Shown here piece by piece: positions 33,110 to 35,745 of a stretch of DNA of 49,770 bases. Position 1 is the stretch's first letter; each line of letters starts with the position of its first letter. A model generated the notes under the pieces. The model was not told where the DNA came from. It worked only from the letters and a program-made list of their open reading frames with translations, and searched no databases. The stretch lies in NCBI GenBank assembly GCA_021797735.1, contig JAJZZE010000042.1, forward strand, positions 1 through 49,770, given 5' to 3'. This DNA comes from Thermoplasmata archaeon. Lineage in GTDB: Archaea > Thermoplasmatota > Thermoplasmata > Thermoplasmatales > Thermoplasmataceae. Both the position numbers and the translations under genes were made by a program.

Positions 33110-33130
33110 CTATAGTGATTATTAACCATT
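33110..33130 (+). repeat. Terminal inverted repeat, copy 1 left
   Basis: Begins CTATAGTGATTATT. Differs from the copy 2 end at five of 21 positions. Confidence 0.6.
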
Positions 33131-33239
33131 ACAAAATAGGTAGTTTGATCGTGAATTTGTACTTTATTTTACGTACCAACAGAAAAGATCTAGATCATAG
33201 TGTCCAGATGTGTGTTACAGGTAGATATATGACAATTGT

Positions 33240-33536
33240 TGTGAGAAAAGTGGAATAGATTATTACAAGTTGTATGATGAGAAGCGTGTGAATGGGAAGG
33301 TTGTACAGAAATATACTGGATACCGCGGGAAAGTGCCAAATTCTAGGGGTGAGATCAAACCCTAGGAGATTATAATGTATGTTCAGAGGCTAATGAATAA
33401 GGGTATACCACAGGAGAATATAGATCAGATCCTCAGAAAGATTGGTATAGAATATGATATATGGTCAATAACTAAGATAATCATAGAGAATGAACTGAAT
33501 GTGAAGAATATAACCCTTACACGCAGGAAGCAATAA
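33240..33536 (+). pseudogene. Decayed small element-encoded ORF (in-frame TAG)
   Basis: One open frame reads CEKSGIDYYKLYDEKRVNGK, VVQKYTGYRGKVPNSRGEIKP, then TAG, then EIIMYVQRLMNKGIPQENID and on to TRRKQ and stop. Only the single amber codon (33363-33365) breaks it. The YYxxxDEKRVNGK and GYxGK segments recur in copy 2 (35410-35636), so this is a conserved element protein. The upstream part is damaged. It may be a DNA-binding accessory protein; I do not recognise a transposase core. Confidence 0.6.
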
Positions 33537-33571
33537 ATAAATATTATGATTTTTATAAAAATAGATGAAAT

Positions 33572-33592
33572 AACGGAAGATAATCACCATAG
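33572..33592 (+). repeat. Terminal inverted repeat, copy 1 right
   Basis: AACGGAAGATAATC followed by ACCATAG, the reverse-complement form of the left end. One of five copies of the 21-bp end motif in the window. Confidence 0.65.
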
Positions 33593-33735
33593 CTTAGGCA
33601 TTGTAATTAAATAATTTAGTTAGTTAGTCGCTTCTGACTTGTTTGCATAATTCCACCTTCCATGGAATTTGTCTGCCTTAATGTTTCATTATGATAGGGT
33701 AGAAATAACTATTTAATTACATCACAATGCCTTAG
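33593..33735. repeat. 143-bp inverted-repeat segment of unknown nature
   Basis: The left arm CTTAGGCATTGTAATTAAAT (33593-33612) returns inverted at 33711-33735 with a five-base insertion. It starts at the very edge of element copy 1. It could be another small element, or a duplicated target. The interior also holds AATTCC...GGAATT. Confidence 0.4.
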
Positions 33736-34005
33736 TATTTATTTCCTAAGCAGTAAATATCAATGTCTACGTAATAATTAATTGTAGCATAGACTTGCAT
33801 CATGCAGTATAATTCCCCCATTTATCCCCAATTTTAGTGGATTCTTGATGGAAAATTATGCAACATTTCTAATCCTTTATGTCCACTATAGGCCATATGG
33901 AAAACTATTTCTATTCAGACAATACTTCACGGTCCGACAAAATACCGGGTATTTGGAACGATCTATATATGTTCCTACACGTGTGTGGGTCGGACATTAT
34001 GCGAA
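33736..34005. other. Spacer with no supported gene
   Basis: Two overlapping rightward frames (33845-34117 and 33879-34139) run into the MITE and have no protein-like features. The right part holds the apparent native promoter of the secreted gene. Confidence 0.45.
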
Positions 34006-34016
34006 TATTTATATAC
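34006..34016 (+). promoter_or_regulatory. Displaced TATA box of the secreted-protein gene
   Basis: AATATTTATATAC is centred 25 bases before the ATG inside the left copy of the target duplication (34037). That is the leaderless spacing, so this was probably the gene's promoter before the MITE separated them by 198 bp. Confidence 0.5.
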
Positions 34017-34035
34017 AGTCATATGTTTATACAGT

Positions 34036-34043
34036 CATGGATA
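34036..34043. repeat. Target-site duplication, left copy
   Basis: CATGGATA, identical to the eight bases immediately after the MITE-like element. Confidence 0.8.
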
Positions 34044-34064
34044 CTATGGCGATCATTTGGCGTT
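34044..34064 (-). repeat. Terminal inverted repeat, MITE left
   Basis: CTATGGCGATCATTTGGCG followed by TT, the reverse complement of the AACG...CCATAG motif. Confidence 0.8.
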
Positions 34065-34212
34065 GGAAATTTGACGCCTATATGCACTGCGGACCAACAA
34101 ATTCATGGGATTTCTAATTCAAATTTGCGTGTTATGTAGGCCTCATTACACTAATTCTTTCAAAAGAAGCAGGAAGATTATGATCCCCTATCAATTTTCT
34201 TGCAAAAGAAAT

Positions 34213-34233
34213 AACGGTTAATGATCGCCATAG
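34213..34233 (+). repeat. Terminal inverted repeat, MITE right
   Basis: AACGGTTAATGATCGCC followed by ATAG. It ends one base before the ATG at 34235. Confidence 0.8.
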
Positions 34234-34241
34234 CATGGATA
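34234..34241. repeat. Target-site duplication, right copy
   Basis: CATGGATA. It contains ATG GAT, the first two codons of the secreted-protein gene. Confidence 0.8.
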
Positions 34242-35038
34242 GAAAGATGATAATAGGTGTGGTAATGGCATTTATATTTATTATGTCGGGATTTGCAATT
34301 GCAGCAGATAATTCAGCTGGCAATATGAATGCGGGTGTTGCTAAGCCGGAATATAATTATAACAACGTTAATATCCCCAGCATAAATATAAATATTGTGG
34401 GCATGAATAGCTTTATTGCCAATTTATTCTCATCAGGAAGAATGGAGAAAACTTTTATTTACAATGGTATTGTAATTCACGAAGAGAGTAATAAAATTAA
34501 AAACAATGAGGTAAAAGTACACTTTTTTGTGCATACAAAAAATTTTAGCAAAAAAACAGCAGTAACAATAATAAGCAAGAATAATGCATATTATATTTTT
34601 AATGACCAAATAAAAGGTTCTGTAAAAATAAACAGTAATACCGATAAAATCATATATGATCCGGGAGGAACTTATTATTACTACGTATCTTCTTCGGGCA
34701 GTTCCAGTCATAAATGGACTACTCCAGTATCATCGGGTCACTGGTATGCGTGTTCTAAATCTATTGTTAAAACTGACACAGCTTTTATAACATGGAGCGG
34801 CCCAAGTGTTATTTTTGTATTTGGGATGCCAGAGATATATTCCCCTCTATTAGGATCTTACTGGCAGGAATCCAATAGCGATGGGTGGGCAGTTTCATGT
34901 GGTCACATACCCCCACATGTAAACGGTCCTGAGATGCCAGTAACCGGTCAGAGGACATTACATAATTATCATGGCGCCAATACAGATGTAAAGGTAACTG
35001 TAATATGGAGCTATACTCCAGTATTAGGAGGTTTTTAA
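34235..35038 (+). CDS. Secreted protein of unknown function, start codon in a target duplication
   Basis: A 267-residue exported protein. MDRKMIIGVVMAFIFIMSGF followed by AIAADNSAG is a signal peptide with cleavage near residue 24. The mature protein is rich in Asn, Ser, Tyr and beta-type sequence (YYYYVSSSGSSSHKWTTPVS) and has two cysteines (WYACSK, VSCGHIPP) that could pair. Family not recognised. The MITE ends one base before its ATG, so it must now use a new or distant promoter. An AGGAGGT near its 3' end serves the next gene. Confidence 0.75.
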   Translation: MDRKMIIGVVMAFIFIMSGFAIAADNSAGNMNAGVAKPEYNYNNVNIPSININIVGMNSFIANLFSSGRMEKTFIYNGIVIHEESNKIKNNEVKVHFFVHTKNFSKKTAVTIISKNNAYYIFNDQIKGSVKINSNTDKIIYDPGGTYYYYVSSSGSSSHKWTTPVSSGHWYACSKSIVKTDTAFITWSGPSVIFVFGMPEIYSPLLGSYWQESNSDGWAVSCGHIPPHVNGPEMPVTGQRTLHNYHGANTDVKVTVIWSYTPVLGGF

Positions 35039-35040
35039 AG

Positions 35041-35268
35041 ATGTCAGTAAATTTGTCCAGATCAGGCAAAAAAAGAATAATACCGAATAAAATATTTTTG
35101 ATAATATTGGCTGCGGAGATTTCATCTGTATATATATTAAATTATGTATACTCCGGAATGATACCACTGGATATAACCATAATTCTTGGTATTATCGGAT
35201 TTATAGTGATAATGAACGGTTTCAGCAGATATGCTGAGTACGAAAAAAGTAAGTATCATGGAAAATAA
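35041..35268 (+). CDS. Small two-span membrane protein
   Basis: A 75-residue protein starting MSVNLSRSGKKRIIPNKIFL with two hydrophobic spans (about 17-36 and 42-60) and a charged tail ending YEKSKYHGK. The ATG at 35041 is fixed by the strong AGGAGGT at 35026-35032. It begins two bases after the secreted-protein stop, so the two form an operon and may act together at the membrane. Family not recognised. Confidence 0.65.
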   Translation: MSVNLSRSGKKRIIPNKIFLIILAAEISSVYILNYVYSGMIPLDITIILGIIGFIVIMNGFSRYAEYEKSKYHGK

Positions 35269-35409
35269 ATGAGTTTGTGGTAAATGAAACCATGAAGAAT
35301 ATTTTATATTACTCTTAATTTGTGGTTCCATATACCTGCAGTATGTAAAATTTCATGAATTCTTTTAACACGGATACATTCTTCTCATATATTTCAGGTG
35401 CCTGGTTGC
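35269..35409. other. Spacer after the membrane-protein gene
   Basis: No gene. It probably contains the eroded far end of element copy 2, but I could not find a matching terminal repeat there. Confidence 0.4.
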
Positions 35410-35636
35410 CTAGCTTTCTTGAATAACCATCAGAAATACAGATTGATGAGGATATATTAGACTGGTTCTATCTTTAATGATCTCTATAGGTTCAACTTCC
35501 TTCTTCGAGTTTGGAATTTCCCCAGATATCCCATGTACGTCTTCATACCCTTTCCATTTACACGCTTCTCATCCACAATGCTGTAGTAAGTCTTTCCGGT
35601 ATTTCCCCTTGTAACCTTTTTTGCCCCAAGTGTCAT
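35410..35636 (-). pseudogene. Decayed small element-encoded ORF (frameshifted)
   Basis: From the ATG at 35636 the frame reads MTLGAKKVTRGNTGKTYYSI, VDEKRVNGKGMKTYMGYLGK and soon stops at 35484. A one-base shift near 35514 restores PNSKKEVEPIEIIKDR, which lines up with PNSRGEIKP-stop-EIIMY in copy 1. The shifted frame then ends at 35410. So it is a frameshifted homologue of the 33240-33536 ORF. Confidence 0.6.
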
Positions 35637-35724
35637 TGTAAACTGTAATTATATCCCACAATATAAATCCTTATACCAGTACGTAAATTAAAGTAAAAAT
35701 GCATGATCAAACTGCCCATTTTAT

Positions 35725-35745
35725 AACGCCTAATAATCGCCATAG
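35725..35745 (+). repeat. Terminal inverted repeat, copy 2 outer end
   Basis: AACGCCTAATAATCGCC followed by ATAG. As written on the + strand this closes the leftward element. Confidence 0.7.

Follow-up and report, generated by a model that had tools for sequence, protein, structure and literature searches.

The window, a stretch of 49,770 nt from the draft genome of an uncultured Ferroplasma-like archaeon (G000), carries an intact signal-peptide gene at nt 34235-35038 (+ strand). It specifies a protein of 267 aa with an N-terminal hydrophobic stretch, which gave no match in Pfam/NCBIfam and has a homologue of 46% identity in genome G001. Directly upstream is a 190-bp element (nt 34044-34233, no strand assigned) bounded by terminal inverted repeats (TIRs), CTATGGCGATCATTTGGCGTT on the left (nt 34044-34064, + strand) and CTATGGCGATCATTAACCGTT on the right (nt 34213-34233, - strand), that agree at 18 of 21 positions, with no mismatch among the outer 14. 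It is flanked by a perfect 8-bp target-site duplication (TSD), CATGGATA, at nt 34036-34043 and 34234-34241 (neither assigned a strand), which spans the ATG-GAT of the gene; the left copy retains the original ATG at nt 34037, and the right copy holds the ATG of the present gene at nt 34235. The element of 190 bp with 21-bp inverted ends, the perfect 8-bp duplication and the rebuilt start codon, all described in an earlier note on this DNA, are thus confirmed. No transposase was found in a six-frame reading of the element, its size lies within the limit for MITEs (under about 600 bp without a transposase gene), and besides its TIRs and TSD it is multicopy and has ends in common with an autonomous element. 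The 190-bp stretch is a true, mobile MITE.

Copies of the element were found at five more places in the window genome (98, 99, 91, 90 and 84% identity), giving six full copies, and once in the congeneric sister species G007 (MAG Thermoplasmata archaeon TL1-4.bin55; 86% identity). Exact 8-bp TSDs occur at the copies on contigs C36 (the window copy, CATGGATA), C43 (AATTCATA), C47 (TATCATAA) and C14 (TAATAAGT), all with different flanks, while the copy in G007 (contig C15) has a TSD matching at 7 of 8 positions and those on C49 and C30 have none. The presence of the 190 bp at five other loci and once in G007, with four different exact TSDs, is not explicable by chance, and the MITE-like nature proposed earlier is upheld. 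The same ends also enclose other interiors, forming subfamilies of 238, 283 and 274 bp in the window genome and, in G007, one of 190 bp (two sites). The empty site of the window insertion, for which a search of relatives had been suggested, is present in G007, where the alignment (~91% identity) continues unbroken over the position of the insertion, CATAAATA occurs once and the 190 bp is missing; the start codon at this site is ATA, and an ATG follows 12 nt further on. In a paralogue on contig C37 of G007, ATGGATA is unbroken. The C43 insertion likewise has an uninterrupted site in G007 (95% identity over query positions 141-268, with the junction at 200), and no clean empty site with joined flanks was found in relatives for C47. 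Neither of the patterns that the earlier note had set against an insertion was seen: the 190 bp is not a conserved leader in relatives, and the ends and flanking 8-mers do not vary independently. Since the element copies are only 1-2% divergent (98-99% identical), as against 3-5% for the flanks of the two species, the window insertion probably took place after the split from G007.

The promoter of the gene was examined with a motif model built on 223 upstream regions of the window genome, using predicted starts. The BRE/TATA motif begins mostly 31-33 nt upstream of the ATG in these regions, so leaderless genes predominate in this genome. At the locus such a motif, ATATTTATATACAG (nt 34005-34018, + strand; 9.2 bits), begins 32 nt before the left ATG, scores above 98% of the gene promoters of the window genome and is conserved in G007 and the paralogues, in agreement with the displaced leaderless promoter reported earlier. 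A 16-bp tandem copy of it (tandem repeat D3) forms a second TATA-like motif at nt 34021-34034 (+ strand; 5.7 bits). The strong promoter now lies 198 bp away from the gene. Between the two are a hairpin and a leaderless ORF of 26 codons that arose through the insertion (MDTMAIIWRWKFDAYMHCGPTNSWDF, nt 34037-34117, + strand; stop at nt 34115-34117). No promoter-like site was found on the plus strand of the element (best site, 1.5 bits), and at the proper distance upstream of the right ATG nothing scores above -1.5 bits, the 7th percentile of gene promoters; the element therefore parts the promoter from the gene and brings no recognisable promoter of its own. A promoter borne by the element was rejected on these scores, which also speak against the earlier proposal that the gene may be driven by it. 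The leader folds strongly (z=-3.4), with the element ends paired, and a known RNA family was rejected, as there was no Rfam match. Transcription would still start at nt 34037 and yield a leaderless mRNA beginning AUGGAUACU, in which the 26-codon ORF would be followed by the hairpin of the element and only then by the real ATG. The 267-aa protein would be made poorly or not at all, and the gene is presumably silenced or strongly reduced in expression.

Full-length insertion sequence (IS) relatives of 2.11-2.18 kb, with CTATGG ends and 8-bp TSDs, occur in Ferroplasma and other Thermoplasmata: they were found in Ferroplasma acidiphilum Y (G003) and in genomes G001, G021 and G011; the duplications are TCACCGTA in G011, CTTCTGTA in G021 and CATTTTAG in G003. 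The G011 copy, flanked by its 8-bp TSD, starts with CTATGGCGATCATTTAGTGT, a terminus near-identical to the left end of the MITE; in this copy orfA and orfB each contain a single stop, and the copies of G021 and G003 are open. On contig C86 of G001 (L130), adjoining copies of the IS share the duplication CATTTTAG, which looks like nesting or a tandem arrangement. The element encodes orfA (~106 aa) and orfB (~500 aa), which overlap as AAATGA, the stop of orfA and the ATG of orfB forming ATGA, with orfB in the -1 frame. This overlap suggests coupling, a simpler explanation than the -1 frameshift also considered, by which the two ORFs are joined in the ISMich2 group (p-MULT 4). OrfB scored just above the cut-off for Transposase_mut (22.1 bits; cut-off 21), under that for MULE (24.5 bits; cut-off 27.6) and far under the curated cut-off for IS256 (38.7 vs 150 bits), so that membership of the IS256 family was not accepted. 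The inverted repeats with a terminal C and the duplications of 8-9 bp are those by which the Mutator superfamily (p-MULT) is recognised (PMC3942029), and the parent IS has both. Assignment to the ISH6 family (p-MULT 2) was rejected, as the duplications vary and do not fit AANATNTT. The MITE is probably mobilised in trans by such a Mutator-like IS, judging from the like CTATGG ends and 8-bp TSD.

The search for orfB in the assembled contigs of the window genome was negative, which is weak evidence given the ends of contigs C55 and C56. Both stop 127 bases into an element that begins CTATGGCGATCATATAGTGTT and reads MTIIPR, the start of orfA. Four contig ends of this genome (C55, C56, C48 and C3; L210, L211, L043 and L042) lie exactly 127 bases inside elements with the same ends, which is the mark of collapsed multicopy repeats, and C55 and C56 begin the parent IS. 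As these two ends look like a collapsed multicopy IS, an autonomous copy is probably present in the window genome. Two relics of the parent IS remain in the window: one at nt 33110-33592 (+ strand), found also in G007, in which both TIRs are preserved and orfA is disrupted, and the 5' end of another (TIR and orfA start) at about nt 35440-35745 (- strand), inverted with respect to the first. A 2.3-kb segment (nt 33276-35573) is inverted relative to its flanks between the window and G007, with both breakpoints inside the two inverted relics, near about 20 bp that they share (GATGAGAAGCGTGTGAATGG). Carriage of the MITE by a virus was considered and rejected, since neither the MITE end nor the gene product matched viral contigs. 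One gammaproteobacterial contig matched over 22 bases, which was put down to chance, as only one end is covered and no element is present.

Across the family, the insertions are not evenly placed with respect to genes. In six of 13 copies, one of which precedes cas6, the element end lies 42, 46, 43, 44, 44 and 43 bp from the next start codon, against 6.2% of intergenic positions in the 35-50 bp range. For 13 of 20 insertions, the distance between the element end and the start of the BRE/TATA motif is 9-11 bp, compared with 6% of random intergenic positions; enrichment is confined to this single 3-nt bin (z=5.6). A stricter set (n=15) was restricted to insertions with a TSD of at least 7/8 and includes three elements found later in other genomes. 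Here 11 insertions have a motif of at least 4 bits at 9-11 bp, that is, 1-3 bp past the TSD (random intergenic sites 6.8%, p=1.5e-10; AT-rich intergenic sites 14%, p=3.5e-7), and the best site within 70 nt falls at this offset in 10 (p=2e-10). The offset was noticed in the same data before testing and 22 bins were examined, and the p-values survive this; the better flank was taken for each insertion, with random controls handled identically, and the set is small. Two of the three elements found after the pattern had been noticed fit it, a 177-bp element of G003 (10.3 bits) and a 222-bp element of G001 (7.5 bits), both at exactly 11 bp, and the third has a weak motif. GAAA stands directly 3' of the TSD in 7 of 20 insertions, against 1.45% of random sites and 5% of promoters. 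A candidate negative-control IS family (ends GAGACTGTGTGAAAA) is single copy and was unusable. A promoter at a fixed distance from the element end is also the p-MULT criterion for promoter targeting, here with an archaeal rather than a sigma-A promoter. These comparisons show a preference of the MITE/IS family for integration at a fixed distance just upstream of predicted archaeal promoters. The family would cut so that the 8-bp TSD ends 1-3 bp before the BRE/TATA promoter (consensus N8-GAAAA-WTTWATATA), at about -43 to -36 relative to a leaderless start; promoter and gene would normally both be spared. The preference would stem from contacts that the transposase makes either with TBP/TFB-bound promoters or directly with BRE/TATA DNA. 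The more specific proposal, that an archaeal Mutator-like transposon lineage and its MITEs recognise the TBP/TFB-bound promoter and are a Ty3-like counterpart that spares host genes, is offered tentatively, at somewhat less than even odds.

The window copy does not itself show the preference. It has GAAAG at the right place, within GAAAGATGATAATAG (nt 34242-34256, + strand), a BRE-like half of the target motif directly after the TSD that reaches the 98.4th percentile of random sites by leave-one-out scoring, and it lacks the TATA half (-2.9 bits). For the real promoter, the TSD would be expected to start at nt 33994, 11 bp before nt 34005; this expected site (nt 33994-34004, + strand) is unused, with a target score of 7.9 vs 4.1 at the site used. 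The element would have taken a weaker look-alike, CATGGATA-GAAAGATGATAATAG, on the start codon of this surface-protein gene, 42 bp downstream of the expected site, and its position looks like a near-miss of promoter targeting. The insertion on the start codon, on which the earlier note had laid its emphasis, is thus confirmed as to position, and what had made it remarkable is better explained by the family-wide preference. The explanation as a whole, a recent insertion of an IS-mobilised MITE from a promoter-targeting family that narrowly missed its usual site and displaced the promoter of the gene, is given a probability of roughly 85%.

Other explanations were weighed against this one. That the 190 bp is an ancestral conserved leader of the gene family, with no insertion at all, could draw on the recurrence of the promoter and signal-peptide region in paralogues, but is refuted by the empty site: the sequence is continuous here in G007 and the paralogues, whereas the 190 bp is found at unrelated loci with other duplications. 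The chance of this reading is negligible. Hardly more probable is a repeat wrongly joined at nt 34044-34233, as might be feared in a draft assembly with contigs ending in repeats of the same MITE/IS family; the element is short, however, both flanks are unique, the duplication is site-specific, and several independent copies have the same structure. The element might instead supply a promoter or regulatory leader that now drives the gene, as it abuts the start codon, its leader folds strongly and many bacterial MITEs carry promoters (PMC10969869). This is improbable given the 7th-percentile score at the proper distance and the lack of an Rfam match, and at other loci the element lies 5' of the host promoter and does not displace it.

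About equally unlikely is that there is no targeting, insertion being random and selection keeping the intergenic, promoter-sparing events, so that the survivors lie upstream of promoters. In favour of this, the stretches between archaeal genes are small and AT-rich, an insertion within a gene would not persist, and the window copy demonstrates that sites of other kinds are open to insertion; the control IS family, being single-copy, also leaves room for selection. Far-upstream positions would be equally harmless, however, yet enrichment is confined to 9-11 bp; it holds against AT-rich intergenic sites (the p-value given above), and the GAAA right behind the TSD is left unexplained.

Promoter targeting is known from bacterial Mutator-like elements. 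TnGBS and ISLre2 (p-MULT 3) choose sites 15-17 bp before the -35 box of sigma-A promoters, and some ISKra4 elements (p-MULT 4) have the same preference (PMC3942029). Like the present family, they have inverted repeats ending in C, 8-9 bp duplications and a fixed distance upstream of promoters, and the near-symmetric ends of the ISKra4 group allow promoters on either side, as is also seen here; the present family differs in its archaeal BRE/TATA target, with the TSD 1-3 bp before it, and in the ATGA overlap of orfA and orfB. ISH6 is also an archaeal Mutator-like IS, for which a preference for promoters through its AT-rich duplicated motif was suggested (PMC3942029), but it duplicates AANATNTT itself, whereas the present family duplicates a variable 8-mer that does not include the motif. 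The IS256 family (p-MULT 1), for which insertion is reported to be random (PMC3942029), has in common the 8-bp duplication and the orfB match, weak and far below the cut-off. Archaeal MITEs are already known, and the Correia elements and Sulfolobus MITEs are likewise short, non-coding and multicopy, with TIRs and TSDs (PMC10969869); the present family differs in having no detected promoter and in its fixed distance from host promoters. Fixed-distance targeting has thus been described in bacterial relatives and, for archaea, only guessed at before; no description of it for BRE/TATA promoters in archaea was found in the literature searched, which was covered in part.

The present data give an offset to TATA/BRE promoters that is precise to the base pair and is seen in at least two genera and in several subfamilies of the element, and they suggest a testable model in which a DDE transposase could read the archaeal pre-initiation complex. 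Yeast Ty3 integrates at TFIIIB, at Pol III genes, by means of a retrotransposon integrase; in the present family, contact with TBP/TFB is hypothetical. The analogy with Ty3 has also been drawn before (PMC3942029). Insertions of the family are natural promoter tags in organisms without transcript maps, and the preference accounts for a start-codon insertion that seemed a curiosity.

Two of the other MITE copies lie beside CRISPR-related sequences. One (L169 13767-13956; G000:C43:53767-53956) is in an apparent CRISPR leader. The one repeat still present lies about 40 bp further on, and in G009 the same repeat forms an array. The other (L188 6612-6802; G000:C47) precedes a cas6 gene by 46 bp and lies immediately 5' of the TATA motif of that gene. 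At the window locus, comparison of nt 34324-35032 with G007 (C1:6844-8228) shows mature proteins that look unrelated behind a promoter and signal peptide of 91-97% identity, as though the body of a surface protein had been swapped behind a retained promoter-signal cassette. The promoter and signal-peptide start (nt 33892-34028) are also found upstream of further genes of G000 and G007 that probably encode secreted proteins (L054, L055, L056 and L066), which suggests that surface genes sharing a leader form a dispersed family.
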